Origin: Deltaproteobacteria bacterium
GTDB taxonomy: Bacteria; Desulfobacterota; Desulfarculia; JACQYL01
Assembly (NCBI GenBank): GCA_016208165.1
Contig: JACQYL010000056.1
Coordinates: 1-37,041 of the forward strand
Reading direction: 5' to 3'
DNA: 37,041 bases
The notes beneath the pieces are model-generated. The model did no database searches and was not told where the DNA came from. It saw only the letters and a program-made list of their open reading frames with translations. Both the position numbers and the translations under genes were made by a program. Shown piece after piece: positions 3,119-37,041 of the stretch. Within the stretch, counting starts at the first letter, position 1. The number at the start of each line of letters is the position of its first letter.

Positions 3119-3204
3119 AATGATACCGGCGCCTCCCGGCCCTGTCAAGCTTTTTCAGGATTAAACAACGTCCCGTATTTGTCGATTGAAAAAACGGTGC
3201 TTCA

Positions 3205-5748: not shown

Positions 5749-5752
5749 CATG

Positions 5753-5938: not shown

Positions 5939-5950
5939 TGGGAACCTTGC

Positions 5951-6026: not shown

Positions 6027-6037
6027 GCAAAGAATGA

Positions 6038-6072
6038 AAGGGTTACAGGTAATCTGTAGCCCTTTTGTTTTT
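6038..6072 (+). terminator. Intrinsic terminator of tRNA-Phe
   Basis: An 11-bp stem AAGGGTTACAG / CTGTAGCCCTT (one T-G wobble) with loop GTAAT is followed directly by TTGTTTTT. This is a textbook rho-independent terminator 12 nt after the CCA end. Confidence 0.88.
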
Positions 6073-6103
6073 GGTGGCGGGGCGTGACGCGTACCTCGCG
6101 TCT

Positions 6104-6545: not shown

Positions 6546-6843
6546 GTCGCTTCCTTCGGGATCATACTCATGGTTTCGGCCGCACGGGAAATCGCCGGGT
6601 TGAAACTACATATTGTACGATCTTGCCTGTTTTGCTTTCGTGTCTCGGCGAATCATATTTGTCACAATGAAATATATGCATGCAAAAAATGATATTTCCG
6701 CCGCTCTGATGGTTTTTTCAGATCGTGATTTCCTTTCTGGAGGAAGCCTTTCTCGATTTTGCAGATAGTAAAACATGCCGACGATCGTCTGTCACGACGA
6801 CAACTCAATTCCTTGAAAAATTGGATCTGTTGAAAACGTCAAC
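6546..6843. other. Non-coding stretch, nothing recognised
   Basis: About 300 bases between the REP array and the promoter of the next gene. It is AT-richer than the flanks, with no open frame of interest and no convincing repeat or hairpin. Confidence 0.5.
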
Positions 6844-6872
6844 TTGACATAATCCGCTTTTTGTATTACAAA
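6844..6872 (+). promoter_or_regulatory. Candidate promoter for UDG-like gene
   Basis: TTGACA at 6844-6849 and TACAAA at 6867-6872 are separated by 17 bp, leaving about an 80-nt leader before the start at 6953. The -35 is consensus and the -10 is only a partial match. Confidence 0.45.
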
Positions 6873-6952
6873 ATCGAGGTATGAGGCTTGGTAGTGCAAG
6901 ATAGAAAGAGAGGGCAAAGCAATCAGGACGAGTTGGAAAAGGAGCCTGACAT

Positions 6953-7573
6953 ATGGACATCGCCAAGGAGTTTGCACGGATTGTCTCTTGCGAAGCATGC
7001 ACGACTAGAACGAGTTCCAATCTTCTTCGCGATTCGGGGGAAAACGTGCCACAACCAGGATTCATCGGCCGGAACTATCGCCCAAAGGGGCTTGTACTTG
7101 TCGGCCGAAACCCTGCGGTTTGCAAACCGGAACATAGGGAACAAGACGCCGCTTACACGGATGTGCTTCGAAGGCTGAAACGCAAACCAACCCCGGAACT
7201 CAAGGAGGAACTCACGGTATTACTAGAAGATTACATGCCGAAGTGGTGGATCATCAAAAAATTTCCATTCGATGAATGTGAAGTTGGTTTGGATGATATT
7301 GCGTTTTTTAATGTCGTGCGTTGCAGAATGACGAAGGACAAGCATCACCCGGCCCAAGGCGTCATCAACAATTGTCGTCCTCATTTCGAACGCTGGCTTG
7401 ATTTGCTAGAACCAGGTCTTCTGATTTTCCTTGGAAAATGGGGCTATGATCGAGCTGACGATTTCGTCAACCCGAAGAAAACCCAAACAAGCTTCATTAA
7501 TTGTTCATCGAAGGAGCTAATCAAAGACCAGGAAAAAGTGGTCAAATTGGTCCACCAAATTCTCAACAAATAG
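6953..7573 (+). CDS. Uracil-DNA glycosylase-like protein, possible Fe-S type
   Basis: 206-aa protein resembling the uracil-DNA glycosylase superfamily. Cys13 and Cys16 (SCEACTTRTS) at the N-terminus, plus the cysteines in VVRCRM and INNCRPHFERWLDLLEPGLL, match the four-cysteine [4Fe-4S] spacing of family 4 enzymes. The segment LVLVGRNPAV fits the motif-A position (compare GxNPG of the TDG/MUG group), and IFLGKWGYDRA fits the strand before the DNA-intercalation motif. The usual C-terminal HPS-type motif is not seen, so catalysis on uracil is uncertain. AAGGAG lies 8 nt before the ATG. Base composition is lower in GC than the flanking housekeeping genes, and the gene follows repeat debris, which suggests recent acquisition together with the next gene. 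Confidence 0.5.
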   Translation: MDIAKEFARIVSCEACTTRTSSNLLRDSGENVPQPGFIGRNYRPKGLVLVGRNPAVCKPEHREQDAAYTDVLRRLKRKPTPELKEELTVLLEDYMPKWWIIKKFPFDECEVGLDDIAFFNVVRCRMTKDKHHPAQGVINNCRPHFERWLDLLEPGLLIFLGKWGYDRADDFVNPKKTQTSFINCSSKELIKDQEKVVKLVHQILNK

Positions 7574-7629
7574 TCGAGCTATTTGACCATTCCATGGATC
7601 GAGAAGGGATCTAAGTAGGAGCTGACAGA

Positions 7630-8229
7630 ATGGCAGAGTATCGCGATACTTCGAAAGTCGTAAATGAAGCTCTCGGCGTAACTTTGGCATTAAAGCTTCG
7701 TCTTGATACGGACTACCACACGGTGGTTTGGCGTCAAAAACGGCCAAGTAACACCAACAGGAGGTTCTATTTTGAGCAGGGTCATTTCTGGTCGATGCCC
7801 GCTGACGCTGCTCTCAAAATGATGGTAGAGGCACAGGCGAACGGCCTCTTCGCGGACGAATATTGGCGATGGCCCGGAAAGTCAATAGATCCTCGGGATA
7901 GCGCTAAGATGAGCCCGGAGAGGGCACAGGAGCTATTTCGAGAGACGCTCTCGCGTGGCTCGGAAGACGCAGAGTGGTGGGACTGTCGGGACCTCCGGAT
8001 TGTGGCTTGCCGGGAACCTTGGGAAAAACGATGGCTCAAAGCAATGATCGTTTGCCCTTCCGGGAATCGGCTCACATTCCGCTCTTTCACGCGCGAAAAC
8101 GATTACGAGAACAAGTATACGACATTTCGGTTTTCCAAGGGCTGGATGTTGGATCGCTCGATGATGGATGCGGACGGAAGGATTTGCCAGATCATGATGG
8201 AACGGTTGAAAGAGGCATTCAGAGGATAG
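7630..8229 (+). CDS. Hypothetical protein
   Basis: 199-aa protein not recognised. It is soluble-looking, with no signal peptide or membrane segment, and rich in Trp and Arg (YWRWPGKS, DAEWWDCRDLR, CREPWEKRWLKAM). The start is supported by TAGGAG 9 nt upstream, and it follows the UDG-like gene by 56 bp on the same strand, so co-transcription is likely. The tail (FSKGWMLDRSMMDADGR) looks like a compact domain. No function is proposed; the neighbour suggests, weakly, a nucleic-acid context. It converges with the caspase-FGE gene about 100 bp downstream. Confidence 0.6.
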   Translation: MAEYRDTSKVVNEALGVTLALKLRLDTDYHTVVWRQKRPSNTNRRFYFEQGHFWSMPADAALKMMVEAQANGLFADEYWRWPGKSIDPRDSAKMSPERAQELFRETLSRGSEDAEWWDCRDLRIVACREPWEKRWLKAMIVCPSGNRLTFRSFTRENDYENKYTTFRFSKGWMLDRSMMDADGRICQIMMERLKEAFRG

Positions 8230-8329
8230 CTCTGCTACCCTGTCCGATGAGGTCTCGATACGCTCGTTCGACTTGTGCTGCTGGACGAGGTACCCCCCGT
8301 TTAATCCATTTCATGGAAAAGTCTGGCAT

Positions 8330-10948
8330 CTAAGGCTCGCGCACAAGGCGGAACCCGAGGTAGCGGTACCTGATGCCCGGCGTGTAGAAGTCCCGATCGG
8401 CGCACCGAATGCTCCCCGGGATATTGTCCCAACTGCCGCCGTGGATCACGCGGCTGGAGCCGCCTGTCGTAAATATAGGATTGTCGCGCCGATGTTTAGA
8501 ATACGCATGCTGCGAATACCAGTCTTCGCACCATTCCCACACGTTGCCGCTCATGTCGTGGATCCCGAGACCGTTGGAAGCCTTTGTACCCACAGGGTGG
8601 GTTGAATTACCGCTGTTCGATGTGTACCACGCCACGCGTTCCACGTCGCTCCCGCCGGAGTATTTGTCCGCCTTACCGCCGCTCCGGCACGCATATTCCC
8701 ACTCGGCTTCCGTGGGCAGGCGGTATTGACCGCCCGAAGACCGGGCATTCAGCTTTTCGATGAACTCCTCGGCGTCGTTCCAGGAGACTTGGTCAACCGG
8801 ATAGTGGTCGTCTTTCTTGAAATACGAAGGGTTGCTTCCCATGATCTTTTTCCATTGGCCTTGCGTCACCTCGTACCTTCCCATCCAGAACCCGTCTAAA
8901 CACACCTCGTGCACTGGCTGCTCATCACCGTCACAATCGCTTGTCCAGCTCCCGCAACCCATTTCGTAGCATCCGCCGGGGACCCACGCGAACTTCATGG
9001 CCGTGACGGGCTCGATCCACCCGACGTCCATGCCCGCCGTTTCGTACTGTTCTTTTTCCGGTCCCAGAAAAACAAGGCGGTCCAAAACGATATGACCCGC
9101 CTCCGAAACGCGCAGGGTCACGGAGGCAACCAGGAGGTCCGGATGCCGGTAAAATTGTCTGGCGCGACTCCGGTCCGCAACGGGGAGCGTACCGGATAAC
9201 GTCAACCATTCCTTTCCGTCCGGCGAGGAAATCCCGGTGTCTTTCAAATTCACCTGGAGCTCAAAATGGCCTTGCTCGGGCACGTACGCAAGCAGTTGGA
9301 ACTCCACCCGGGAAGGGGACACGTCGAAGCGACGTTCCGTGAGTTTCCGGACCTGCTCACGCAGAGGCTCTTTCTGGGCTTCCAGGTCTTTTTCCAACCG
9401 ATCGTTCACTTCGAGTTCCTTGGAAGCCCGTTCCTGTGTCAGTCCCTTCTCCCTGTTTTGATGCGCTTCCAAACGCTTCCTGTACTCCGCCTCGGTCTCG
9501 AACATCTTGTCCCAAGGGTCCACCTGTTGACCCGCGATGCGTTCGGTCTTCGCACGATACTCCTCCTGAATTCGTTCCTGCTGTTCCCTCCGCTCTTGCG
9601 CGAAGTCCTTTTCAAGCAGCACGATGGTCTCGTTGATCCCGTGGATTTCCTTTACGCATTCGGCCAATCCGATAACCTGGTGGGGCTTCTCGACTTCCCG
9701 CCGGAGTTGTTCCGCCTTGGCCTCGAGGTAGGCGAGGCGTTCCAGGCGTTCCTTCTCCCGGACTTCCAGTTCGGCCGCGCTTCGCCGGGCTTCTTCCTCC
9801 ATGCTCGCCCGGCGCTCCGCCTCCCTGCCGGCCGCCTCCTGCCGCAGCCGGGCCAACTTGACGGCCGCCTCTTTTTCGAGTGTCTCCCGTTCCAATTCCC
9901 GGAGCCGGGCCTCTTCCTCCTGCTCCTCCGCCGATTTCCTGAGTCGCTCCAATTCGGCCAGCTCGGCTTCCAGCCGTTCCACAACGCCCTTTTCCCTCGC
10001 ATCCCGTTTGGCCGAGTCCGGCACGAACACGAAATCTCCGGTCCCGTAAATCTCTCCAACCAGGGGCTTCTGCGCGTGGCCCCTTGCCGCGGCGTCGCCA
10101 TAGACCTCCATCTGCAGTTTGAATCCCAGCTCGCGAGCGGAAATGAAGTCCTGCACACCCTCCAGGGCGGCGATAAGCCGACCCGTGAAAACGGAATGGC
10201 CTCCAATTCCCCCGTCAAGGACCTGCTGATCTTTTCCACCCGCGGTAAGGATCTGACGAACGGGTTCGCGCGTGATTTCCCGCAGGTAGGCCGTCCGGTG
10301 CTCCGGCTCCAAACCTGAAAAACGGGTGGCGAGCAGCAGGCCTCCAAAACAGGTGTCCGCTATAAACAGGACGTGCTTGGCCGGAATCAGCGGAGATATG
10401 TCCGACTTCATCTGCTGCATGGAGATGTTCTTGTACATTTCATCCATTTTCACGGAACCGTCAAAGGGCACCAGGTATCCCAAGTCCCCCTGGGCAGTCG
10501 ACCGGGTAATCCCATGACAGGCGAAATAGATGAGCACGGCATCATCCGAACCGCTGGAGGATAGGTCTCCCTGCAGGATCTTCAAAATATTGGCTCGGGT
10601 GGCCTGCCCGTTGTAAAGCTCGATGATTTCTTCGAAGGGATAGTACTTGCGCAGGGTTTCCGCCACCCCTTTTGCGTCCCTGACCGCGTACTTGAGGTGG
10701 TATTCACGCCCCAAGTTCCCATACTCATCGATCCCGATAATCACGGCGGTCATTCGGTCATAAAGGGGAATGCTCTCCACCTTGGCTTCCGCTCCGGAAC
10801 CGGTCTTAAGCACCACTCCGATTCCCCTGGCGTTTTGTGAGCCAAGACCTTGCCCGCCGCACAACAGAAACAACACAATGACCGAGACGAAGCCGAGAAC
10901 CCATTTATCGAGCATGCTTTTGCCGTCAGGACTCATCCTTCCCTCCAA
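8330..10948 (-). CDS. Secreted caspase-like / coiled-coil / FGE-fold fusion protein
   Basis: 872-aa protein in three parts. After a hydrophobic signal-type segment (about residues 15-30) comes a caspase-family (peptidase C14, orthocaspase) domain at about 64-215, with the expected dyad His145 (YFACHG) and Cys200 (ADTCFGG). A long, highly charged E/R/K-rich coiled coil covers about 325-530. The C-terminal about 225 residues form an FGE-sulfatase/SUMF1 (C-type-lectin-like) domain: FAWVPGGCYEMG, GRYEVTQGQWKKIMGSNPSYF, YRLPTEAEWEYACR, DMSGNVWEWCEDWY, GGSW and LGFRLV. The cysteine pair needed for true formylglycine generation near the C-terminus is absent, so this domain is probably ligand-binding. 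The signal has no good lipobox, which argues for export or anchoring of the fold outside the cytoplasm. A truncated caspase paralogue lies 47 bp upstream. Substrate and trigger are unknown. Confidence 0.85.
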   Translation of the reverse strand: MEGRMSPDGKSMLDKWVLGFVSVIVLFLLCGGQGLGSQNARGIGVVLKTGSGAEAKVESIPLYDRMTAVIIGIDEYGNLGREYHLKYAVRDAKGVAETLRKYYPFEEIIELYNGQATRANILKILQGDLSSSGSDDAVLIYFACHGITRSTAQGDLGYLVPFDGSVKMDEMYKNISMQQMKSDISPLIPAKHVLFIADTCFGGLLLATRFSGLEPEHRTAYLREITREPVRQILTAGGKDQQVLDGGIGGHSVFTGRLIAALEGVQDFISARELGFKLQMEVYGDAAARGHAQKPLVGEIYGTGDFVFVPDSAKRDAREKGVVERLEAELAELERLRKSAEEQEEEARLRELERETLEKEAAVKLARLRQEAAGREAERRASMEEEARRSAAELEVREKERLERLAYLEAKAEQLRREVEKPHQVIGLAECVKEIHGINETIVLLEKDFAQERREQQERIQEEYRAKTERIAGQQVDPWDKMFETEAEYRKRLEAHQNREKGLTQERASKELEVNDRLEKDLEAQKEPLREQVRKLTERRFDVSPSRVEFQLLAYVPEQGHFELQVNLKDTGISSPDGKEWLTLSGTLPVADRSRARQFYRHPDLLVASVTLRVSEAGHIVLDRLVFLGPEKEQYETAGMDVGWIEPVTAMKFAWVPGGCYEMGCGSWTSDCDGDEQPVHEVCLDGFWMGRYEVTQGQWKKIMGSNPSYFKKDDHYPVDQVSWNDAEEFIEKLNARSSGGQYRLPTEAEWEYACRSGGKADKYSGGSDVERVAWYTSNSGNSTHPVGTKASNGLGIHDMSGNVWEWCEDWYSQHAYSKHRRDNPIFTTGGSSRVIHGGSWDNIPGSIRCADRDFYTPGIRYRYLGFRLVREP

Positions 10949-23460: not shown

Positions 23461-25500
23461 TTACGGCTTGTTCATACTTAAAGAAACCTCAAGCACCTCA
23501 TCTATGCTACTTACCGGGGTCAGCTTGATACCGTCGAGCACATAGGAGGGTAACCCCTCCGCCTCTTTCAAATTATCAGCAGGCAAAAGAACCTCTTTGA
23601 CTCCTGCATCGTAAGCAGCCCGGACCTTCTGTTGAATGCCGCCAACCGGGAGCACCTTACCCATTATTGTAATCTCACCGGTCATGGCGAGGTCGTTTCG
23701 CACGGGGGCCTTTTTCAAAGCCGATACGATCCCGGCAACAATTGTGATGCCGGCAGACGGACCCTCCTTGGGTACGCCCATAAAGGTCGCCAGTACCGCT
23801 ACATCAAAACTCTTTCGCCATTCGGCGCTTATGCCGAGGTCCTCGTGCTTTGCCCGGATGTACTGAGCTGCTGCTTCGATGCTTTCCCGCATGACCCTTT
23901 GGATCGACCCGAGCGGTACGATGCGTCCGGACCCCTTGGTCGCTTGCATCTCAAAGTGAAGGATGCAACCATGGTCCCCTTCGACGGCCAAGCCTACAAC
24001 CTCACCGACTGAAGGCTTCTCGGGGAGCGCAACGCGCTGAACACGATTGCTATCCGGAAGCTCAGGCACAACTTGCTTACCCGACGGCTGCATCAGCGAT
24101 CCTAAAGAAATACGGTCATACTCGCCCGGTGCAATCAAATGGAGCTGGTCTCGCACCCGTTGCCGCAGTTCGCAGGACAGACTCAAAATGTCCTCAAGTT
24201 CCTCGTCGGCTACCCGACCATCAGGGTGAAGCAACTTCAGCAGGCCAGAGCTGGTTTTGATAATAGCGCGTTGATCGCGGCCAGAGATACCCTGCGTCCT
24301 CCTGGCATGGTCAACTATATCAAAACGAGAACGTACCGCTCCCAGGAGATCAATACGGCGAAGCTCGTGCATGATCTCGCAAAAGTAATCCGTAATGAAT
24401 CCATAGTCCTTCGAATAGCTGTTTGGGGCCAACTTCGGAATTTCCCACCCGGGCAGATAGCCATGGATGCGGTCTAAGAATGCGATGACCTGCATAAAAT
24501 CCGGCAGCGGCTCAAAAAGGTGGTAATATTTTTCATGTGGCAGATTACCTTGGACGTCCAGGTTGCCTACAAATACCAAACTGGCGAAAGCAAGGATTTC
24601 CTTCTTGCCCCTGCTGAATTTCGCATCCTGCATATATCCCTGCATGATGCTTACGAAGGACCTTGGATCGGTAAAATCAGTGTTCGCGATCTCGTCAAAA
24701 ACAACGGCGTCCCGAACGCCGACTTCGCCAATCTTCCCGGTATTGAGGTTGATGAAAAGCTGGGCAGGAGTCGCCTTGCCGCCGGACAGCACGTGAGCGT
24801 AATATGAGATATTGCGATAGAGATAGGTCTTGCCGGTTTCCCGAGGTGCAAGTTCCACCATGTTGACGTTCGTTTCGACCAGAGGAATGCAACGGCAAAG
24901 AAAAAGTAACTTCTGTCGCCGGGTCATTTTCGAAGGATCAAGCCCACAGGAGTTTACCAAGACATCAATCCATTCGTCGGTAGAGAACTCCTCGCGACGC
25001 TCTATGAACTCATCAAGATTGATGACGCTGACCTGAAAAGGCATGAACCCGGTGATCTTGAAGGGTCTGATTTTCTTGTTATGAATCTCGGTCTCGTCAT
25101 AGGTCAGGTCGATGGTTCCCCACATTCCGCCCGAAAGCAGCATGGGGTATTGACGGACGATGCTTTCCGGTATGTTCACAAAGTTCTCGTTGATGGCGGA
25201 AATCGTGCCCCAATACTTGTCCTCCGTCTCAACCAGCCGGGCTTCCAGGCTCGCGATTACCGAGTGGCTGCGGTTTTCACGAATGTAATGCCTGATTTTT
25301 TCGGCCTCCGCCCCATAGACGAAGGTCTCCTTGAGCCTTCTGACGACCTTTTCCATGTCCTCGTGGAAGGTTTCCTCGGAGCAGTAGTTGTCGATCAGGT
25401 ACTCCAGGACATAGCGCGGAAATTCGTCAACTCCCGTGTTAATCGTATGGGCCTTGTTGACAACCTTGCCTCTGAAGACCTCTTTCAATTTCAGGTTCAT
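23461..25500 (-). CDS. brxL: BrxL, Lon-like BREX protein
   Basis: 679-aa BrxL, the Lon-related component of BREX phage-defence systems. The N-terminal and central AAA+ part has a P-loop variant, [14 protein letters not shown] (about residues 217-229), and a Walker-B-like [12 protein letters not shown]. The C-terminal part is a Lon (S16) protease fold with catalytic Ser582 in EGPSAGITI and Lys625 in [10 protein letters not shown], 43 residues apart as in Lon. An upstream ATG in frame exists at 25563, but the start at 25500 ([17 protein letters not shown]) has GGAGG 7 nt upstream and matches the family N-terminus. It is the last gene of the BREX operon, 94 bp after pglZ. BrxL occurs in type 1 and type 4 BREX. 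Confidence 0.93.
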
Positions 25501-25594
25501 CCACAGTCCTCCACCCGCGACACAGGAACAACCACGAGCGATTCGGGGTTCCGACTCGCCCATGTTGATTGGGTTGTTGTCTTGGCATCCGGCA

Positions 25595-28504
25595 TCACTT
25601 CATGCTCCTTGGGGTCAAGCCCAATATCTTCCCGAGATGAGCTGGTACTCGGCGAACGATCTTTTCTGAATTCAGGCGCATGGAGAACCGAATAGTCCGC
25701 GCTTTTCTCACCATGCGTTGCGCCTCACGATAGGTGACGCTGATTCTCAGCAGCCGCTCCATGATGCCAGCCTTGCGCTCTTCATCCGAAGCATCGGCGG
25801 CATCTGGAACAAATCGAAAAACGACGTCTCCTCCCGCCGTAGAAATGTATTCGACTTGGGAGGGCAAGGCCGGTGTTTCCTCTTTGTTCTGATATACCGC
25901 TTGCGCCTCGAGCCGGAGCTCCCTATGTTTATGAGATTCCGTAAGTTCAACAGGCATCTTAAACTCGGCTTCTTCCCCTTCAATGAGTTCCGCGGGCCCG
26001 GTAATCGGGCCGAGGACAAGCAGACCCTCTTCCGGCGCTTTCACACGCATGGCAAGCATGGGCACAAGCATTTCCTGGATCGAAATCCCACCGTGTGAAT
26101 ATGCATCCGGATTGAAATTGGCTTTCGGCCGGGCCAGGGCGTAACCGGTTTTCGGAAAAATGATCGATTCGAATTTCTTTTGCCAACTCTGTTTGGTGGA
26201 CCGGTCAAGGGCTTCCCCGGCGTTGGGCATCCGCAGATCACCGACCGGAAACTCCAGGACGCTATCGCGAACCTTGCGCGGTGCGCCGACACCGTTCAGG
26301 GTCTGTCTAAGCCACGCGTTCTGATAGAAACAATCATTCGGCTCATTCAACCAAGGCAAATCAATACGGATACGCTCGCGACCGATAGCGCCAAATCCAT
26401 GGTCGGCTATTACAAAGACCTTGGTATCTGGTGTTAGTCCACGAATGATGGCCATGACCTCGGTGTCGATGATGTCCTTGATATGCTGCTGATAGATGAA
26501 TGCCAGCGGGCGTCCGGGAACGCATCGACCATCGGGCAGTGTTTTCACCGGAATCTTGTGGAGTTCCTTGTCACAGAGTTCAAAGATGAAGAACTCGATG
26601 CTGCCTGCTCGATACCGAACGGTCTCACCGGTTCCCATACCATCGGGAGCCACGACTTCGACATCCCCTGCATATCCGAACTCTCGGTGCATCGCTTCTT
26701 TAAGAAGAGCGTCTTCGCCGCGCCGGGTGTCGAAGGAATCGGGAAATGTTCCAGCAAAGATCGCTTTTCTGCTTATGTGGGTCTCTGAGGGCAAAAGGGA
26801 CGTGGCGGGGTAATCCGCAATGATCTCCATGCGATCCTCAAATATCGGCCTGACCAGCTCGTCCCATATGTCGTAACGCATGCCGTCGAACACAAACACC
26901 ACTGCCTTTTCGCCTTGGGGGTCCCAATGAGGCTTAAGGCACCGCCTCAAGAACTGGCTGGTCAATCTTACTTCCGATGAATCCGAAGCAACCCACGATT
27001 TGTACTTTGCGGCCACCAGTTCTTGGTAACGGGCGTTCACGCTCGCGAGCGCCTTTTGCGTGTCGTCGCGCAGCAAGCTCACGCGCTCTCGAATACGATC
27101 TTGTGCCGACAGAAAAGCGGGCGGCAGATCGATTGCGGAACGTGGGAGAAAATCGACGCTAAACACCAAACGCTCCAGAGCAGACAGAAAGTATTCCAGA
27201 CGGTTTGCCCGACGATCATTCCATAAGGCTCGGAACCACTCGAAAGTCAACTCTGAGGTTGGTTTCACACTCAGGTTCTTTACGGCGACATCCAAGGCGT
27301 CCCGGATGTCGCGGATTGATCGCACCAAACGATATGCCGCCTTCAGATTCTCCCAGGCCGGCGAAGGACGTTGTTCGATAAACAGGTCCTTCTTGCCATC
27401 TGTTTCTGTGAATAGCACCTGATCGAGTTTCTTATGTGAAGCAAGGGGCGGAGCGTCGGAGAGGAAACTGTCCAGGCCGACCAATAGGGCCAAGGATCGG
27501 ATAAGGACCGAATAATGTTCATTCTCGATAACCTCCGCAAAGCGACCGCTGGCCGTAACCTTCAGTTGATCGAGAAGGATGAGGTTGATTGCATCCTTGG
27601 ACAACGATGATTCGACATCCTGAAGGTCGCGATGAGCCCGATGGGGGTCAATAGACACAAGTTCAGGTGCGGCCTCGCCAATCAGTGCTTTGTCGATTTC
27701 ACTGAAAGTTGTGAGGTCCGGGTCAATACTGGCAAGCATGAGCTTCCAATGCTCAACGTGCTGGGATAGTATCGTTGACAGATAAAAAGCCCTGACTATC
27801 AGTTCCGGCGGCGAGTCAGCGAACCAGCAGAAGGGAGCCGGGGCGCTGCGCAGCTCGTCGCGGATGGAACGCGCTACTTCCGGGGCGAGCGAATCAAGTT
27901 CCTCAAGCGCCGGATACCCGATAAGGCCGATACGCCAGTAGCTTCTTGCCTCCGGGCGTTTGAAAGCGGCCTCGGGCACCCCCAATGCCGAATAGGCAAC
28001 AATCGTCTTGAAATCGTGGTCAGTAAACCGTGTCGGATGCGCCACGCGCAGGCTCGCGTGTGCTTTGAGAACAGCGTCTAAGCACCCCGTAATCAGCCTT
28101 GCGAACCTTGGATCATTGGACTCTTGAGGCCAGTTCGGGTCCCCGGTCTTTTCAATCAGAAACTGCCGTAGACTGATTTCGATCCGTGCCGTCTCAGCGG
28201 TTCTGGAAAGAAGATCAGGGTAAAAAGGGGGAGGCGCTTTTGTCAGAGACGCATGGGCCCTCCTTCGCGCCGGAGCACGGTCGATCAGGAGCAGCTTCTT
28301 CGTATCCTTTGAAACGGTTGCCCTTTCAAAGAGTTCCCTGAAGACGAGATTCGTAGATGCGATGATCACCGTAAATCCGCTCTCATTAGCGAACCGGTGG
28401 ACAGCACCGTCGGCCTCGGGGAGAAGTCGAAGCGAATCCTGGACAAGCAGAATCTGCTCATCCTTCAGCGCTTCCAACTTATCAATTACCCAGCTCGAAA
28501 GCAT
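25595..28504 (-). CDS. pglZ: PglZ, BREX alkaline-phosphatase-fold protein
   Basis: 969-aa PglZ (BrxZ), the hallmark protein of BREX and Pgl defence systems. The alkaline-phosphatase-superfamily domain covers about residues 530-800: [18 protein letters not shown] with metal-binding Asp540, [18 protein letters not shown], and [12 protein letters not shown] with Asp701/His702. The N-terminal about 500 residues are helical and of the PglZ type. Length is typical. GGAGGG precedes the ATG, and the gene starts 12 bp after the brxC-like stop, so the genes are co-transcribed. Its precise activity in BREX is not settled in what I know of the literature. Confidence 0.93.
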
Positions 28505-28516
28505 CGACTCGCCCTC

Positions 28517-31500
28517 CTATTCCAACTGGAGCATTGGAAGGGAGTCGTCGTCTCCCTCGTTTTCGGTGAACTGGGTTTCAAGGAACCGGCCGAATTCCTC
28601 TGCGACTGTCCCGACCTGGTCCTTCTGAATGGTGCCAACATTGGGCCTGAAGTCGGCGATTCTGACTCGCTTCACAACGATGCGCTTGAGGTATTTGTTA
28701 ATGATGTCCACGATCCCAGGCGGTTCCCGCACGACTTTGACGAAATAGGTGCGAAGCTCTTCAGTGGTCTTGCACGCCAGCAAACCGGAGATGGTCGGCT
28801 CCGTCTTTCCCTGCTCAAGCCGTTCCCGCACGGTAGGATTCAAGAAAACCTCCATCTTCCGGCGGAATACATCGTCGAGCAATTGACCGGCCTTCTTGGC
28901 TGCATCGCTTGCCGTCTGCGCATGGATTGACGCATTCACAAAAGACAAACCGCATTCATGCAACGGACCGTTGCGCAGGTGATCCTCGACGGAAGCGCGC
29001 GAAGGAGATGGGCACTCGAATATTTCAGAACGGAGATGGGTCAGACGGGAAATCAGTTTGTCCGTGCTTGGCGGTTGCAGTGCCGTGACACCATCCAGGA
29101 CGCCGAGTGCGTTAATGTCGGCTCCGGTTATTGCATCCTGAATCTGCTTGCGACTGGCGTCGATCCTGTTCACCACGGATTCGTGCATCGGTACGTATAC
29201 CGATGAGTACTCGCGGATCATTGCGGCAATCGTGTCTCTTTCCTCCTCGACCGGTGGGAAATGGCCCACGAGTTCGGTCTTCAGCTTTACGTCGGAATCG
29301 ATATAGTCTTTCAGGGTGCCAAGCTTGGCCCGGACGGCTTCTATAGCCTTTCGTGCCTGAGCCAGTTCTTTCTGGTCTCCCAGGGTGATGGCGCAGTAGG
29401 CATGAGCTGTCCGAAGCTCGGTCTCGTATTCAAGGAAAGCCCGAAGGTCCCTGCAGTTTTTGAGTCGATTGGCAAGATCGTCCACCTCGGCAGGGGTCGC
29501 CATGTTCGTATCAAAAGCCTGATACCCCATGGCCTCTTTAAGGGCGTAAAGAAAAAGGTAAATGTCGTCGCCGCCATCGATATTTGCGGAAAAAAGCTTC
29601 ACAACCTGCGCCAGTTCCGCTTCATAGGGATTGACGGACTTCAGTGCGTCGAACAGGCTCTGCGCCCGGCTCGCCACCCGTGACGAGGATTCTTTTTCCT
29701 GGGCGAACAGTTGCCGTAGCTTGGCCCGGTGTTCGGAGATCATGGCGTCATCGTGAGTGGTGGGGATTTCGGTTCCGAGCAATTTCTCCGCATACGGTCT
29801 CAAGACTTCCCAATTCTCGGGCTTGGCCACTTTTTGAATCTCGCCCAAGGCATCCAGCACTTTGGTCGAAAACTCCACATCGGCTATGTTCGAATAGTCG
29901 AGCAGGGGAAGGGCAAGCCCGGCCTTGGCCCCCAAGGTGATCCGCACACGCCCCTCCCGGACCAGACAGAGCATATAGAGCTGAACCATGCGTCGCGTGA
30001 GCCCGTAATCCTTCGGACCGCCGATGCCCATGAAGTTCTTGTAAAGGGTATCCACCTTTATGGTTTGGCCATCGTCCGTCAACTTGTCATCGATGAACGT
30101 CCACATCTCCTGCACATAGGCGTTGCCCGAAACATCCAGTTCTTTTTCGGCGCTCTTTTTCATGATGTTCAGGCCGAAGCCGAAGTTCTGTGCGGCGCTT
30201 ATGTTCTGATTGGGCTTTGCCCCCTTGCGAATCCGGCCTGTCCTGACGATGCCGTTGATGACCTTGACCCCCTCTTCCTTGCGGAATACGAAGGGCGGAT
30301 CAAACTTGATGTCCCTGGACACATAGGCCGCTGTAAGCACCCGATCCACCAACGGCGTCAGGATGGCCGCCAGTTCGCCGGCCACGCGGAACTCCATCTG
30401 GGTGTTGTTCAGCGCGTCGACACGGCCCCGGGCGTAGCTGTTGTCCACGATCTTTACGATCTTGGCAAGGTCGGACTGGAGCGCGTTGGAAACCCAGTTG
30501 ACCACCGCGACGGCATCCTCGGTTTCCTTGCCCTGCCCGTCGGAAATGAGCTTGCGGTAGGCGGCAAAATCCATGAGCCGGTCGCGTTCTTCCTGGGTCA
30601 GCTCTGCCGGGGTCCAGAGAAGGACGCGTGGGTCCTTGCGTCGCTCGACCAGCTTGAGAATGGAGGTGTCCGCGACGTGGCGGGCGCCGATATATACGGC
30701 GAAATCAAGATCTGTCTGATCGCTTTCAATGGGTGGTAGCGGCAGATTTTCGGAGAACATTCGCCCGAGATCGCGCATCCCCACCCGCCCGGAAATCTGC
30801 CGCCCTCGCCAGATCACATCCAGATTTTGATCCCCGGAACGTGCAGCGCCTCGGTCCTCCCATGGTGCAATGAACGGAGCGATGTCCCTGAATGTAGACC
30901 TGACGCCGCTGGACAAATCGATGGTCATCTGGCGCGTGCGCACCGGCCACTCGTCAAGCGCCAGGAGGTGGTCCCACGCTTCCTTCTGCATAGCCTCGTT
31001 GGATTCCGCTTCGTCTCTGGCCTTGCTAAACTCATCCCTCGGATCAACCCCGGTAAAGACGGGATCAAAGCGGTATCTCGGCCGCTTCTCCTCGTCGAAG
31101 GCCTGGACGATCTGTCGTAATTCCTTCTTGAGGTTGTCGGCGATAGTTTCGTAGTGCTGGTTGTTTTCGTCCGGATTGGCGTCGGCGTCCCGCTCGATGA
31201 GCACCGAATTGGCGATCTCCTCCGGCGTGATGCCCTGCTGGCGCGTGCGGGAAATATGATAGAGGAAGAGGGTCTGGATGACCTTGACGCCCTTGTCGCG
31301 GTGAACCTTCAAGTAGCCCTTGGTCAGGCCGTCAATCTGGCGCTTGCATGCCTCGTAAGCCCGATAGTCCGTCTCGCGTTTCGTTTTGATAGCCACCAGC
31401 CCGGCATGGACGCCGCTCGGGTCCTCTTCGTAACGCACAGCCTCATCGAACAGCTCCCACAGGCGTATGAGCTCGCGGCCCTTGTTCTTAATTTGGTGCT

Positions 31501-32854
31501 TCAGGGTCTGATGCATGAAGTGGATCGCGGAACGAGTCGTGGTCAGCTCATAGGTGATCGCCCGCAGGACCTCGATGGCAGGTTTATGGAAAGGGAAAAA
31601 GTGACGAAAGTCCGGCTCGCCGATGCTATTGGGCCAAGTGAATCCTCGCTTGTAATGGAGATAATAGTTGCTGATGGCCGCCGGTTCTTTGATCTCCCTC
31701 ACGCGCGCCAGGACGATGTCGTAATAATCCTTGTCCTCTTCGAGCAATTTCACCAGTTTCAACCGGTCGTCGGCGATGATGTTCTTGACGCCCATCTTGC
31801 TTTCGATGGCCTGTTGGGCCGCGCAGACCGTCCACACGGGCAGATTGTGGATTTTCGCCAGGCGGTTGGACAGTACGACCAGGGTCTTCTCGTCATCGGT
31901 CCGCTGATCCTCGTCCCGGTTCTTCATGAACAGCGACACTTCGTCCAACACCAAAAGAACCCCGCTATACCCCTCGGCCAGAATCGTTTCTATCATGTGC
32001 GTGAGGATGTCCTCGGTCTCCGCGGCAATCTGGGGCTGGACTTTCAGATATTCGGTGTAGAAGCGCCAGAGCTTATTGCCGCAGCTCCGTTTATATTCCG
32101 GTGTTTTGTTCTGCTGGATGGTGCGGAGGAAGTCGTCAACCTCTTCGAATTCATCCTCGTCGAAAAACTTCGGGGCACGCAGGAACTTGGCCAGGTCCCT
32201 CCGGTAGCGCTCCATGTCCTCGGTGATGAACCGGTCGGCCAACAGCTCCACAGGATAAAGCGAGATGTTCTTGCCGAGTTCGACCTGTATCTGCTCCTTG
32301 GCCGCATCCAGGATGTACTCGGAGAGACGCCGGCCTTTATCGGTCAGGCCCACCGTACCGCTGCCCGCTCCTACCAGTGTCTTGACAATGACGAAGATGC
32401 CCTTGGTTCCTTTGCTGCTTTTGGCCTCGATTCCCGCCTCCCAGAAACGAAACAGGGACTCGCGCTTGCCGCGGCCGGAGGCGTCTTCCTTCTTCTTGAC
32501 GATATCCCAGGCATCCTTGCGTCCCAGAGCCAGGGCGGAAAGACAGCAGAGCAGATGGGATTTACCGGAACCGAACTCAGCCTGAATCCAATACCCCTGG
32601 CCAACCGGATTCTCCTTGCGCTCCCGCTTCCAGGGGGCGGCCATGTTGCGCAGGATGTCCGTGAGGAACGGCCGGACCGGATCGATTTGAAATTCCTCAA
32701 TGGTCTGCAGCTCCGGCTTGCGGGCCTTACGGTTCGCCTCGGAGTTCGAATCAGCCCAGACATGCTTCTCCAGGGAATAGACGGAGATGATCTTGTCCGG
32801 AACCGTGCAGATCTCGCTCAGGTCTTTCCTGAAGGTAAACAGGTCATCGGCCAT
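28517..32854 (-). CDS. brxC: BrxC/PglY-like large P-loop ATPase
   Basis: 1445-aa ATPase at the position of BrxC/PglY in BREX operons. The Walker A is FGSGKS (94-99 in YWIQAEFGSGKSHLLCCL), and the Walker B is GVLLVLDEVSLFM (298-310). The N-terminal module FRKDLSEICTVPDKIISVYSL, then EEFQIDPVRPFLTDILRN is typical of this family (DUF6079-like). The rest is long and helical, with a conserved-looking RVRIADFRP near the end. It starts with AGGAGG, 2 bp after the HEPN gene, and ends 12 bp before pglZ, so it lies in the same transcript. Canonical BrxC is about 1200 aa; this one is longer. Confidence 0.85.
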   Translation of the reverse strand: MADDLFTFRKDLSEICTVPDKIISVYSLEKHVWADSNSEANRKARKPELQTIEEFQIDPVRPFLTDILRNMAAPWKRERKENPVGQGYWIQAEFGSGKSHLLCCLSALALGRKDAWDIVKKKEDASGRGKRESLFRFWEAGIEAKSSKGTKGIFVIVKTLVGAGSGTVGLTDKGRRLSEYILDAAKEQIQVELGKNISLYPVELLADRFITEDMERYRRDLAKFLRAPKFFDEDEFEEVDDFLRTIQQNKTPEYKRSCGNKLWRFYTEYLKVQPQIAAETEDILTHMIETILAEGYSGVLLVLDEVSLFMKNRDEDQRTDDEKTLVVLSNRLAKIHNLPVWTVCAAQQAIESKMGVKNIIADDRLKLVKLLEEDKDYYDIVLARVREIKEPAAISNYYLHYKRGFTWPNSIGEPDFRHFFPFHKPAIEVLRAITYELTTTRSAIHFMHQTLKHQIKNKGRELIRLWELFDEAVRYEEDPSGVHAGLVAIKTKRETDYRAYEACKRQIDGLTKGYLKVHRDKGVKVIQTLFLYHISRTRQQGITPEEIANSVLIERDADANPDENNQHYETIADNLKKELRQIVQAFDEEKRPRYRFDPVFTGVDPRDEFSKARDEAESNEAMQKEAWDHLLALDEWPVRTRQMTIDLSSGVRSTFRDIAPFIAPWEDRGAARSGDQNLDVIWRGRQISGRVGMRDLGRMFSENLPLPPIESDQTDLDFAVYIGARHVADTSILKLVERRKDPRVLLWTPAELTQEERDRLMDFAAYRKLISDGQGKETEDAVAVVNWVSNALQSDLAKIVKIVDNSYARGRVDALNNTQMEFRVAGELAAILTPLVDRVLTAAYVSRDIKFDPPFVFRKEEGVKVINGIVRTGRIRKGAKPNQNISAAQNFGFGLNIMKKSAEKELDVSGNAYVQEMWTFIDDKLTDDGQTIKVDTLYKNFMGIGGPKDYGLTRRMVQLYMLCLVREGRVRITLGAKAGLALPLLDYSNIADVEFSTKVLDALGEIQKVAKPENWEVLRPYAEKLLGTEIPTTHDDAMISEHRAKLRQLFAQEKESSSRVASRAQSLFDALKSVNPYEAELAQVVKLFSANIDGGDDIYLFLYALKEAMGYQAFDTNMATPAEVDDLANRLKNCRDLRAFLEYETELRTAHAYCAITLGDQKELAQARKAIEAVRAKLGTLKDYIDSDVKLKTELVGHFPPVEEERDTIAAMIREYSSVYVPMHESVVNRIDASRKQIQDAITGADINALGVLDGVTALQPPSTDKLISRLTHLRSEIFECPSPSRASVEDHLRNGPLHECGLSFVNASIHAQTASDAAKKAGQLLDDVFRRKMEVFLNPTVRERLEQGKTEPTISGLLACKTTEELRTYFVKVVREPPGIVDIINKYLKRIVVKRVRIADFRPNVGTIQKDQVGTVAEEFGRFLETQFTENEGDDDSLPMLQLE

Positions 32855-32855
32855 T

Positions 32856-33251
32856 TTATCGTCCTCCTAACTCCTTTGAGCCAATTTTTTTCCAGCACGC
32901 CTGGGCGGCTTCAATAGCATCCCGGGCATCTTCCTCACCCGGCAGCCCATCCGTCAATGAACCCGGCAAGGCATCGGGATAACGGGTCGGAATATAGAAA
33001 ATGTCGAGTTGGGCCAAATCATCCTGTAAATGCGAAAGATATCCCGTTGGCAGCAGGCCAAGCAGATCGACAATCGAATGGGTTCGAGGAGGTGTTTTCC
33101 CAATATTCGCTATCAAGCCTTTTATGCATTTTTCAACGCACTGCTGGCTGTGAAAACAGACCTGGTTATAAATACCTTCTTTCAATGCAAGTTCCGCCAT
33201 CTGTAAATCCTGGCGGGCGAATTCCAACCATCGATCACCTGGCGCGTTCAT
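32856..33251 (-). CDS. HEPN-domain protein paired with MNT
   Basis: 131-aa HEPN-domain protein of the PF05168 type: WLEFARQDLQMAELALKEG, then FHSQQCVEKCIKGLIANIGK and PPRTHSIVDLLGLLP. In MNT/HEPN pairs, the HEPN partner is usually the RNase-like toxin or the modified partner. It overlaps the preceding MNT gene by 17 nt (33235-33251) and stops 2 bp before brxC, so it is translationally coupled on one side and in the BREX transcript on the other. The start at 33251 is chosen over the longer frame because it matches the family N-terminus (MNAPGDRWLEFA) and gives the overlap typical of the pair. The RxxxxH RNase motif of HepT is not clear here. Confidence 0.8.
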   Translation of the reverse strand: MNAPGDRWLEFARQDLQMAELALKEGIYNQVCFHSQQCVEKCIKGLIANIGKTPPRTHSIVDLLGLLPTGYLSHLQDDLAQLDIFYIPTRYPDALPGSLTDGLPGEEDARDAIEAAQACWKKIGSKELGGR

Positions 33252-33609
33252 AGACGATTTCCCCCTTGCCGATGATTTCTTCTTTGAAAAACGGCCGATC
33301 CGCACATAGCCGGTCAAATTCCTCCGGCGTGTACACCATGATATCCATGCCGACTTTGGGTTGAAGGAGTTTGCGGACCTTTTTGATTCTCTGGAAAAAA
33401 GGCAGTTGGGTACGCTCCACGACCACCAGATCGATATCGGACCATTCGTGAACCGAACCAGTTGCCAGGGTTCCGAACAAAATCACCTTTTCAGGTGACC
33501 CGTGCTCCGTCAGCAAGCCAACGTAACGAGCCAACTCAAGATCCAGCAGCTTTTTCCGTTTCGCCGAATATTGCCGTTTATTCAATTGATCGTTCATTTG
33601 TGTCACCAT
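33235..33609 (-). CDS. MNT-type minimal nucleotidyltransferase
   Basis: 124-aa nucleotidyltransferase of the MNT family. The metal/nucleotide site is FGTLATGSVHEWSDIDLVV, the GS-x10-DxD pattern with Thr in place of Ser. The start at 33609 has AAGGAA about 6 nt upstream; the frame extends further upstream, but only as a shadow of the methyltransferase gene. It is followed with overlap by the HEPN gene. The pair is inserted between the methyltransferase 3' end and brxC. MNT proteins in such pairs act as antitoxins by nucleotidylating the HEPN partner. Confidence 0.8.
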   Translation of the reverse strand: MVTQMNDQLNKRQYSAKRKKLLDLELARYVGLLTEHGSPEKVILFGTLATGSVHEWSDIDLVVVERTQLPFFQRIKKVRKLLQPKVGMDIMVYTPEEFDRLCADRPFFKEEIIGKGEIVYERAR

Positions 33610-33619
33610 AGTGTATTCC

Positions 33620-34036
33620 TTATACCGATTTGCCCTTTCGCCTTTGCGCTTTACCCTCATCTCTCGCCAGCATGCGTGCGCAAACCTGGTAATCTTCCTC
33701 GACGTTAACCATGGCCTCCTCGGTGAGGTTGTCGGGGTTGAGTCCGCCTTTCTCGTACAAGAGCTTGCCCTGCTCGTAGAGCCCGGCCCGCTTGCAGTGG
33801 CGTATCCACTCGGCAATGGTAGCGTCGCTCGGCCGTTCCTGATCGGGGATGGCAGCGCCCAGTTCGAGCTGGGCGATATAGCGCTTCACCCTCCGGCCCA
33901 GTCCCTTGACCCGGGCTTCACGCTTGGCCTTTTCCTCTTCCTCGGAGGCGGGAAGCCGCCAGGTGCCTTGTTCGGTCTTGTAGAAATAATCGGGCAGGAA
34001 TTCGGCCAGTTGACGGCGTGGCTTGTCCTTCACCAT
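33620..34036 (-). CDS. C-terminal part of the BREX methyltransferase in the -1 frame
   Basis: 138-aa frame from the first ATG, but it is open further upstream to a TGA at 34166-34168. That upstream stretch reads as natural protein (EKIGAFIKGHLKKHPG; EGVHYSDLFEHYIYMVKD) across the 3' end of the methyltransferase gene. It continues KPRRQLAEFLPDYFYKTE, then a helical region ending ARMLARDEGKAQRRKGKSV. It is most simply the C-terminal domain of the methyltransferase, separated by a frameshift. Whether the two parts join by programmed frameshifting, are translated separately or represent decay is open (see the slippery site at 34090-34096). A separate small gene is the alternative. Confidence 0.6.
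   Translation of the reverse strand: MVKDKPRRQLAEFLPDYFYKTEQGTWRLPASEEEEKAKREARVKGLGRRVKRYIAQLELGAAIPDQERPSDATIAEWIRHCKRAGLYEQGKLLYEKGGLNPDNLTEEAMVNVEEDYQVCARMLARDEGKAQRRKGKSV
33629..33658. repeat. 30-bp direct repeat upstream of the MNT gene (copy 1)
   Basis: 26 of 30 bases match the segment at 36761-36790. The shared core is CCCTTTCGCCTTTG on the plus strand. It ends 20 bp before the MNT start at 33609, within the last codons of the methyltransferase C-terminal frame. Confidence 0.7.
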
Positions 34037-36111
34037 GTAAATGTAGTGCTCGAATAGGTCGCTATAGTGAACCCCTTCGTCGCCCGGGTGTTTTTTGAGA
34101 TGTCCCTTAATAAATGCACCAATCTTCTCACCTCGTGGGTACCGAATAAGTCCGGCTCTTTCTGTTCAAACAAGTTTTTGATTACAGGTGTTTTGACCTC
34201 ATCAGCCACCTGCCTTAATAGCTCGTCGAAGTCGTACGCTTCCATTTGACCGCTACGCACCATGCGGCTCACGACCTCGTCATAGATGCGGTCCTTGGTA
34301 CAGCCGGGGTTTGCGCCGATGTAATCACCGATAATTTGGCGGACCTTATCGTTAAAAGTAGTTTCGTCTTCCTCGCCGGTGATAGCAATGGTCGCCGCTA
34401 CCTCACCTGACTTTGGCTTGCGAAAGTTGATGACAAGATCACGTTTGTTGACTTTATCTGCAAAATATTGATTTGTAGTTTTAGTGGCCGAATCAATGTA
34501 GAGTGCTTGTTCAGTCCTCTCCACGACAAATCCAGCTTGGGCCATAATATCTTGCACCAAAGCCCAAGTGCCTTCTGAGGTATCGTGATAGCAGAAGGAA
34601 GTGCAACGTCCTGGTTTTAATACTCGATAGCATTCTGCCATTGCTTGGCGCATCATATTAGCCCAGTCTTCTTCTGTTGTTCCACGCACTTCATTAACTA
34701 TAATCTCATCTTCATGCCAATGCATATCTAAATTAAGCCAAGTTTCCCATATGAAATTTAATTCACCATATTGGACTTTTTCTGCATACGGGGGATCTGT
34801 AAAAATATAGTCTACAAATGAAGTTGGGATTCGCATAACACATGCATTGGATGTATCAATAAACAGTTTGGATTGCTGTAATGCTATATTGTTATAGCCG
34901 GATATCATGTCACCCAAAGATTCATGCATAAATCTTCCAACATGAACATCATGCAATAACTGCGGTATGTAATAGGTACCCTTTTGAATGCGACCAATTC
35001 CATCATTATTGTGCGCCATCATCCGCGACGACTTTAGAAGAATACTAGTGAACATAAATGAAAGCTGATCTTTGTGATCACCTGCATTTTTAATTTCTTC
35101 AAGGTACGCTGCCAAAGCCCATAAATTGCGTTTGGTAAAGAGTTCGGCAACAGTTCGAAAATTACGTCCCGGCCGCCATTCATTCCCCCAAGGCTCCGTG
35201 TCAGAGTCAACATGCATCATCCGATCCTTTGGGTACCAGTACGGAATATCCTTCGCCTCAATATCCCGAATCTTCTCCAGATTATATTTCACGAAATAAT
35301 CGCGTTTCTTTTTATCCGGGTCGTTGTGTCGCCTCTCGCCACGTGCCGGTTTACATCCGGCTTCGCAGATATAGCTCACCAGCACCGGCACTGCGCCAAA
35401 TTTTTTAGCTCGCGTGCTGATCTCTTCCACAATGCCTCTTTTGTGGCAGCGGGGGCAGGCGCTGATTTTCTTGGGTTTACCCTTGGCAGTAGTTCCTTCT
35501 ACCTCCACGCAATCGAACAGCGTCACCTTCTCCAGGCAGCGCGGGCACTGAAAGACTTGGGAATAAACCGTGTAGGCCGTAGTCGCCTTGCCGTTGCAAC
35601 GGTCGCATCGGGTCTCGTAAAGCCAGTCAATCTCCGGCTTGACCTTGCGCTTGAGATCCTCGAAAGCTTTCTGGAGTTCATCCACGTCAACCGGCGCGCA
35701 GTAATTCTTAGTGATGAAGGTCGCCGCCGGAGAGCGGTCGATGGCGATGGCCTTACGGCCCTCCATCAGCGCAGCTAGGGCTGTGCCGCCCGAGCCGCAG
35801 AAGGGATCGAGCACCAGATCGCCGGGTTTGGTATAGTGCCGGATGTACTGGCGGATGGCATCATGCGGCTTCTTCGACCAGTAGGTGTGCATGTTATAGA
35901 TGGCCGTGGCCTTGGTGGTTTCAATGGGCTTATCGAAAGCGGAAACATCATAATCGTCCGTCTTCGGATCGTATGGCCGCTCCTTGATATGCTGCTCCAC
36001 GAATGACCGCAGGTTCGGGTTCGGCTTATCGCCGGAATAGTAACCCTCCGGCATCTTGGGGACTTCTTTTTTCCAAAGGCTCATGTTCTTGTCAGGGTTG
36101 CGTTTGGGCAT
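34030..36111 (-). CDS. Amino-DNA methyltransferase of the BREX locus, main part
   Basis: 693-aa SAM-dependent DNA amino-methyltransferase, probably adenine-specific. The SAM motif is VLDPFCGSGGTALAAL (DPFCGSGG 102-109), and the catalytic motif DPPY is at 439-442 in DYIFTDPPYAEKVQYGEL. Between them, cysteines at about 169/172, 189/192, 219/222 and 249/253 form zinc-ribbon-like knuckles (CDRC, CPRC, CPRC, CEAGC), an unusual insertion that may read DNA. It plays the PglX role but lacks the canonical 1200-aa PglX layout and the N-terminal DUF1156 pattern. The final 20 or so codons of this frame look like read-through of a shifted frame. The region 34430-35240 is clearly AT-richer than the flanks. 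It starts directly after hepT. Confidence 0.87.
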   Translation of the reverse strand: MPKRNPDKNMSLWKKEVPKMPEGYYSGDKPNPNLRSFVEQHIKERPYDPKTDDYDVSAFDKPIETTKATAIYNMHTYWSKKPHDAIRQYIRHYTKPGDLVLDPFCGSGGTALAALMEGRKAIAIDRSPAATFITKNYCAPVDVDELQKAFEDLKRKVKPEIDWLYETRCDRCNGKATTAYTVYSQVFQCPRCLEKVTLFDCVEVEGTTAKGKPKKISACPRCHKRGIVEEISTRAKKFGAVPVLVSYICEAGCKPARGERRHNDPDKKKRDYFVKYNLEKIRDIEAKDIPYWYPKDRMMHVDSDTEPWGNEWRPGRNFRTVAELFTKRNLWALAAYLEEIKNAGDHKDQLSFMFTSILLKSSRMMAHNNDGIGRIQKGTYYIPQLLHDVHVGRFMHESLGDMISGYNNIALQQSKLFIDTSNACVMRIPTSFVDYIFTDPPYAEKVQYGELNFIWETWLNLDMHWHEDEIIVNEVRGTTEEDWANMMRQAMAECYRVLKPGRCTSFCYHDTSEGTWALVQDIMAQAGFVVERTEQALYIDSATKTTNQYFADKVNKRDLVINFRKPKSGEVAATIAITGEEDETTFNDKVRQIIGDYIGANPGCTKDRIYDEVVSRMVRSGQMEAYDFDELLRQVADEVKTPVIKNLFEQKEPDLFGTHEVRRLVHLLRDISKNTRATKGFTIATYSSTTFTW
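34090..34096 (-). other. A-AAA-AAC slippery heptamer, possible -1 frameshift site
   Basis: In the methyltransferase zero frame the codons are TCA AAA AAC, that is A-AAA-AAC, the classical X-XXY-YYZ pattern. A -1 slip leads exactly into the frame that continues as HPGDEGVHYSDLFEH and the C-terminal part. No clear downstream stem-loop is seen. Since the -1 frame also looks protein-like before the heptamer, a small upstream deletion is an equally good explanation. Confidence 0.35.
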
Positions 36112-36474
36112 CTATTCCTGCTCCTTCGATCCCGGCTTTTCATCCTTTAAAAGTCTTCTGCAGGCGGTTTCGAGCGCATCCAGTTTGTTTTGCACCACGT
36201 CCCAGACTACGGGAAGGCTGACGCCGAAATACTCATGGGCCAATATGTTTCGCAGCCCCACAATCTTTCGCCACTCAATATCACCGGCCCGTTCCTTTAC
36301 CGCCTCCGGCAGGCGTCCTGCCGCCTCGCCGACGATCTCGAGATTGCGCACCACTGCATCCTGGGTCTTCCGGTCCCGTGTGAAGACGTCATAACTCATC
36401 GAAACCGTGTATTCCCGGATCTGGCCGATGGCCTCCAGGATGTCGTCTATATACAGGCGGGGATCCCTACGCAT
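36112..36474 (-). CDS. hepT: HepT-like HEPN RNase toxin
   Basis: 120-aa HepT (DUF86) protein. The catalytic and AMPylation motif RxxxxHxY is intact: Arg75, His80 and Tyr82 in LRNILAHEYFG. The N-terminal pattern RDPRLYIDDILEAIGQI and AVVRNLEIVGEAAGRLP are typical. HepT is an RNA-cleaving toxin inactivated by its MntA partner through AMPylation of the motif tyrosine. It overlaps mntA by 8 nt and abuts the methyltransferase ATG, so it lies in the BREX transcript. Confidence 0.88.
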   Translation of the reverse strand: MRRDPRLYIDDILEAIGQIREYTVSMSYDVFTRDRKTQDAVVRNLEIVGEAAGRLPEAVKERAGDIEWRKIVGLRNILAHEYFGVSLPVVWDVVQNKLDALETACRRLLKDEKPGSKEQE

Positions 36475-36757
36475 AAACCACCTCCTGCTCTATGATCGGC
36501 CTGAGACGAGGTTTTACGGTATCCGCCAGAACCAGATCCACAGGCCGCTGAAGAACCTCTTCCAGCCTGAATTTAAGGTCCATGTAATTATCAAAGGTAG
36601 GCTCAGCCAGTTCCACGATGATATCCACATCGCTTTCGGAGCTTTCATCCCCTCTGGCGCACGAACCGAAAACGCCGATGCGCATCACTGAAAACCGCTC
36701 ATTTAACTCCCGGCGGACTGCGGCAATTTTTTTAACTGCATCTATACTCGTTGCCAT
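36467..36757 (-). CDS. mntA: MntA-type AMPylating antitoxin
   Basis: 96-aa nucleotidyltransferase with the MntA signature GS-x10-D-x-D: Gly31, Ser32, Asp43 and Asp45 in VFGSCARGDESSESDVDIIVEL. It is expected to AMPylate and neutralise the adjacent HepT. The start at 36757 (MATSIDAVKK) is chosen; the longer frame from 36793 would translate the purine-rich repeat in front of it. An AGGG-containing purine tract serves as Shine-Dalgarno. It begins 32 bp after the stop of the BrxF-like gene. Confidence 0.87.
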   Translation of the reverse strand: MATSIDAVKKIAAVRRELNERFSVMRIGVFGSCARGDESSESDVDIIVELAEPTFDNYMDLKFRLEEVLQRPVDLVLADTVKPRLRPIIEQEVVYA

Positions 36758-36760
36758 TTC

Positions 36761-36790
36761 TTTACCCTTTCGCCTTTGCCCTTTGCCCTT
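36761..36790. repeat. 30-bp direct repeat upstream of mntA (copy 2)
   Basis: Matches 33629-33658 at 26 of 30 positions (core CCCTTTCGCCTTTG). It ends 3 bp before the mntA start and touches the last base of the upstream gene's stop codon. Confidence 0.7.
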
Positions 36791-37041
36791 CACTCCCTAA
36801 TCTCCCATAAGTGGTTTTCGGCAATCAGGTTTGTGGGCAGCGTGTAGTCACCCTCGTCCATTTCATGAAACATGATGATCCGGCCACGCGACCTCCGGCC
36901 GGGCAGAAGGAGCAGCACCCGGTCCTCGTCCGCCGCCATGGTTCGTAGTAGGTTCAGCTCGATGTGATAGGCAAAAAGCATCTCCAGGTTGGACAGGACC
37001 AGGATGCCCTGGCCGGTGAGATTTGCGCGCAGGAACCGCTC
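36790..37041 (-). CDS. BrxF-like protein, 3' part only
   Basis: 83 codons of a gene running off the right edge, ending in TGA at 36790-36792. Visible are ILVLSNLEMLFAYHIELNLL (beginning like the Walker-B strand and following helix of BrxF), DRVLLLLPGRRSRGRIIMFHE and NLIAENHLWEIRE at the end. The layout, an LxNLExLF motif then a strand ending in PGR followed by a beta hairpin, resembles the small ATPase BrxF that opens type 3 BREX operons. This is by-eye resemblance only. It precedes mntA by 32 bp on the same strand. The N-terminal P-loop that would confirm it lies outside the window. Confidence 0.4.
   Translation of the reverse strand, partial: ERFLRANLTGQGILVLSNLEMLFAYHIELNLLRTMAADEDRVLLLLPGRRSRGRIIMFHEMDEGDYTLPTNLIAENHLWEIRE

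Follow-up and report, generated by a model that had tools for sequence, protein, structure and literature searches.

We found that the DNA methyltransferase gene of a Type-3-like BREX phage-defence system, located on the reverse strand of the 37,041-nucleotide stretch of DNA analysed here (hereafter the window), has most likely been broken recently rather than being decoded by programmed frameshifting. This gene for a BrxXI/PglXI-type enzyme appears to have lost about 76 nt in its C-terminal HTH region, and the enzyme is probably inactive, a reading to which we assign a probability of about 0.8. The methyltransferase is the sole broken gene of a Type-3-like BREX locus that also carries BrxL and two MNT-HEPN pairs. 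All features described below lie on the reverse strand.

The 693-residue open reading frame (36111-34030) matches the DNA methyltransferase family N6_N4_Mtase of Pfam (1.5e-22), and its best PADLOC match is PglXI (PDLC02541, E 1.6e-106). The methyltransferase motifs, DPFCGSGGT near residue 103 and DPPY near residue 441, stand about 330 residues apart, and the homologue alignment shows six invariant insert cysteines in CxxC-type pairs (C169, C172, C189, C192, C219 and C222) and a hypervariable stretch at residues 360-420 within the insert. In the published description of Type-3 BrxXI, the methyltransferase core has a recognition domain inserted into it and is followed by three HTH-like domains (PMC12839542). 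The sequence match and the large variable insert in the Rossmann core, with its Zn-finger cysteines, agree with membership in BrxXI/PglXI; the C-terminal HTH triad in one chain is present in the homologues and missing from the window copy, where its absence is a loss and not the mark of a different family. Residues 1-661 (34129-36111) retain homology and comprise the methyltransferase core, the inserted target-recognition domain and most of HTH1. The rest of the 693-residue product (RRLVHLLRDISKNTRATKGFTIATYSSTTFTW, 34030-34128) is out of frame and has no counterpart among homologues, which bears out the preliminary description, where the end of this frame had been called low in quality. HTH2 and HTH3 are encoded in the displaced 3' part, in the -1 frame at 33620-34129, which is open to a TAA. 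This protein-like continuation to 33620, likewise noticed before, resumes homology at 34129 (EKIGAFIKGHLKKHPGDEGVHYSD...) and is 82-87% identical to the homologous loci L006 and L010.

Homologues were drawn from 25 loci in a scan of genome contigs, many of them 58-76% identical, and IMG/VR contributed one further, intact homologue (L031). Among 97 further genomes from the same class or phylum, a single one contained a relative, and a distant one (31%); plasmid homologues are about 30% identical and uninformative for the break stretch. Seventeen homologue copies cover the break region (L005 to L014, two in L015, and one each in L016, L017, L019, L022 and L031). All 17 have a single uninterrupted frame, and all 17 contain about 25 residues (RWYLKET...D.AE..KED.AA) that are absent from the window; W653, Y654, L655, D664, E667, E671 and A674 of this missing segment are invariant (14-sequence alignment, L010 numbering). 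Searches with both protein parts placed the zero-frame and tail homologies about 78 nt apart, in the same frame, in several loci. L011 shares the long LFGTHE linker with the window and reads ISRWYLKETQLAIHDEAETANEDKAA between LFGTHE and EKLGAF, whereas the window runs from LFGTHEV straight to EKIGAF with a frame change, so that it is short of L011 by 25 codons and 1 nt (76 nt, a -1 shift). The junction lies at 34131-34127, with the frame break at 34129, and thus falls within the interval 34115-34145 for which a small deletion had been proposed as one option. The sequence of the joint is GTGAG followed by AAG, and judging from the homologues a 3-nt GAG would have stood at both deletion ends before the event. 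Neither a second intact copy of the gene nor a second or silent copy of its 3' part was found in the genome, a 142-contig assembly.

An AlphaFold model of the L010 homologue, built with 14 sequences, has a mean pLDDT of 54.6; it is poor for the methyltransferase core and mostly at pLDDT 70-89 in the C-terminal part, and only the latter was therefore used. In this model, the missing segment comprises strand 651-655, which closes the first HTH wing, and the first half of a long helix (665-688), and the displaced tail forms the second and third HTH.

We propose that about 76 nt were lost between codons of the C-terminal HTH region, probably through a short-homology deletion at GAG or through imprecise recombination that joined two alleles. 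As 76 cannot be divided by three, the loss would have moved the final ~168 codons into the -1 frame, and translation would end at 34030, giving a product of 661 native and 32 random residues. This product would be without the strand that closes the wing of HTH1, without the linker helix and without HTH2-HTH3, and for that reason the enzyme would probably be inactive or unable to join the BREX complex. In Type-1 BREX, the methyltransferase is required both for methylation and for defence (PMC6326788); by analogy, BREX methylation and defence are probably off in the window's system. The sequences themselves show that conserved residues are absent, that the frame changes at the deletion, that homologues are intact and that the tail bears weak signs of relaxed selection; the deletion mechanism, the loss of activity and the reality of the lesion in the cell are what we infer here. 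As a counter-point to the deletion, no other gene of the system is damaged and the tail has kept its open frame, a state that would also be compatible with an event of very recent date or with a variant within the population.

The preliminary description had pointed to a slippery heptamer, A_AAA_AAC, and the sequence is indeed found at 34096-34090 in the zero-frame phase X_XXY_YYZ. A canonical heptamer in the correct phase, followed by an open tail frame, could suggest programmed -1 frameshifting that yields a short and a long enzyme, the first option named in that description. We reject this explanation with good confidence and regard it as extremely unlikely, on the joint evidence of homologues, heptamer codons, structure, stimulators and site strength. 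The frame change is seen in none of the 17 homologue copies; uninterrupted frames in homologues together with residues missing from the window had been named beforehand as the outcome that would speak against frameshifting, and the alignment over the break region returned both. The heptamer lies over 30 nt downstream of the frame break, and the intervening stretch still spells family sequence in the -1 frame (EKIGAFIKGHLK, compared with EKLGAFIKGFLK in L005), although frameshifting at the heptamer would never have it read in that frame; its conservation implies that it was translated in the -1 frame until recently. In this original frame the heptamer corresponds to the codons AAA AAA CAC of the conserved LKKHP/LKKNP, which homologues write as AAG AAG AAC, AAG AAA CAT and similar. 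Of 15 homologues, 14 also contain canonical zero-phase X_XXY_YYZ heptamers, scattered over various places, and none shifts frame at them; the window's heptamer does not exceed chance expectation. No stimulatory structure was detected downstream, as the 80 nt there fold no better than shuffles (z 0.01), and none of the SD-like stimulators listed in PMC4066793 (GAGG, GGAG, AGGA, GGNGG, AGGKG) is present in the upstream stretch. In E. coli, moreover, A_AAA_AAC is a far weaker site than A_AAA_AAG (PMC5009743). A frameshifted product would still be short of 25 residues, seven of them invariant, and would carry about 11 random ones, and on the structural model a normal C-terminal region would be present neither in this product nor in the 693-residue one.

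On/off switching by slippage at the A6 run, also put forward in the preliminary description, is highly improbable. In Streptomyces, pglX is known to be phase-variable (PMC9122589, PMC6326788), and the two frames would be reunited if the run changed in length; in the window, though, it is the deletion farther upstream that destroys the frame, and a change at the run cannot restore the missing conserved residues. Homologues, furthermore, have a mixture of AAG and AAA at this position and not a conserved tract. Six adenines are short for a phase-variable tract. Translation of the tail might instead begin anew at an ATG (34036) that overlaps the zero-frame TGA (ATGGTGA, 34030-34036), an arrangement typical of coupled translation. 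Coupled restart there could give a 138-residue C-terminal piece; the M position of the restart is A or S in the closest homologues. That this piece associates with the 693-residue part into a two-piece enzyme is hardly conceivable: the restart point lies inside the conserved HTH2 part (SDLFEHYIYMVKDKPRR), so that the second HTH would be cut, the split occurs in no homologue, and the linker and wing strand would still be missing. We likewise consider it very unlikely that the 693-residue enzyme, alone or with the restarted piece, is still active in a linkerless, two-chain form or is switched by rearrangement at the joint. An assembly or sequencing artefact, in which the living strain is intact and the contig lost 76 nt or misjoined two alleles, is unlikely but deserves consideration. 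The assembly is fragmented, and the closest relatives on one side of the junction are not those on the other, a pattern expected if two alleles had been fused into a chimera. However, k-mer assemblers make their joins at long exact overlaps, and the overlap at the joint is nearly nil (the presumed 3-nt GAG); in addition, the neighbouring genes are all intact, and the signs of relaxed constraint on the tail are not expected from an artefact.

Weak signs of relaxed selection are seen on the displaced tail. In branch N/S counts over three taxa (window, L010 and L006), the tail has an N/S of 0.77 on the window branch with its end excluded, and of 1.04 when the divergent last 15 codons are included. 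On the same branch, brxC and pglZ have lower values of 0.37 and 0.28 (Fisher p 0.044 and 0.007), and the tail on the L010 branch stands at 0.26 (p 0.054). As the tail value is below the neutral expectation of about 3.5, constraint would have been relaxed on only part of the branch, which makes the lesion recent on this scale; the signal is modest and partial and stems from about 160 codons. The two sides of the break also differ in ancestry. Residues 541-661, on the HTH1 side, are nearest to L011 (support 0.82), and the long LFGTHE linker is common to the window and L011 and absent from L005, L006 and L010, whereas the tail is nearest to L010 and L006 (support 0.82-0.90). This suggests a recombination joint at the deletion.

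The BREX-like operon around the gene consists of a brxF-like gene, the methyltransferase, brxC (DUF6079), pglZ and brxL. Only the 3' end of the brxF-like gene lies in the window (36790-37041; 97.6% amino-acid identity to L010). The BrxC-like P-loop ATPase (DUF6079; 28517-32854, 1445 residues) and PglZ (25595-28504, 969 residues) are intact and as long as in L010 and L006, and BrxL, an AAA+ protein with a Lon protease domain (23461-25563), is also intact. BrxC, BrxF, BrxXI and PglZ occur together, as in Type-3 BREX, with BrxF assigned by synteny and small ORF only; the downstream position, where Type-3 would have BrxHII, is taken by BrxL. Type-3-like loci with BrxL were observed in the window (23461-36111) and in L006, L008, L009, L010, L011 and L013, and may represent a widespread Type-3 variant.

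In L010 and L006, the methyltransferase stands immediately behind brxF and ahead of brxC. The window, by comparison, has an MNT-HepT pair (36112-36793) before the methyltransferase and an MNT-HEPN pair (32856-33609) after it, and both of these toxin-antitoxin-like pairs are absent from L010 and L006. The upstream pair consists of an antitoxin-like MNT nucleotidyltransferase (36467-36793), an insert relative to these two loci, and a HepT-like ribonuclease (36112-36474); the downstream pair consists of a second MNT nucleotidyltransferase (33235-33609, with a start site predicted from sequence) and a HEPN-domain protein (32856-33317). In L012, an MNT-HepT pair is located between the methyltransferase and brxC. 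An A+G-rich direct repeat of 29 nt, 90% identical between its copies at 33629-33657 and 36761-36789, lies ahead of each MNT gene; the downstream copy stands in place of the final ~15 codons of the methyltransferase tail. The 16-nt core of the repeat, searched genome-wide with at most one mismatch, matches both repeat sites and one other, weaker site.

Several homologous loci are themselves unusual. L005, from the Firmicutes MAG UBA993, has a single 1107-residue frame that extends from the contig start and passes from the methyltransferase directly into the C-terminal portion of BrxL (2080-3325); brxC, pglZ and the beginning of brxL are missing. This fusion is either a second deletion among these methyltransferases or an assembly joint. 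L015 carries two tandem genes of the window's methyltransferase family (5368-10544), whose identities to the window are about 49% and 60%. In L022 (7043-8170) and L031 (8342-9277), a separate gene lies between the methyltransferase and brxC, and its C-terminal part resembles the last HTH of the methyltransferase; it is possibly a BrxA-like component or a target for 3'-end exchange.

Broken BREX methyltransferase genes have already been reported to be frequent, and the window's gene fits this reported frequent loss of PglX. Our analysis also removes a tempting false positive, since a slippery heptamer, even one that is perfect and sits at a frame change, may be no more than conserved lysine codons beside a deletion. 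The allele could furthermore show which part of the poorly studied C-terminal HTH region of BrxXI is needed.

The window's gene resembles Type-3 BrxXI (PglXI; PMC12839542) in its core halves, which are split by a long, variable and cysteine-rich insert, in a C-terminal stretch of about 280 residues that is predicted to be helical/HTH, and in the company of a brxF-like gene, brxC and pglZ; unlike the described BrxXI, the window copy is frame-broken. The locus as a whole differs from Type-3 BREX, which is described with the helicase BrxHII and without BrxL, in that it carries brxL. With the programmed -1 frameshifting of dnaX and of IS3-family transposases, the window shares a canonical zero-phase heptamer followed by an open -1 frame, but here the arrangement is unconserved, a stimulator is lacking, residues are missing and the frame is already broken before the heptamer. 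The gene instead resembles the naturally disrupted pglX genes of BREX systems, in which the methyltransferase is inactivated while the remaining BREX genes are intact; in contrast to pglX of Streptomyces, where a homopolymer changes, the lesion in the window consists in the loss of about 76 nt from the gene of a Type-3-like enzyme.
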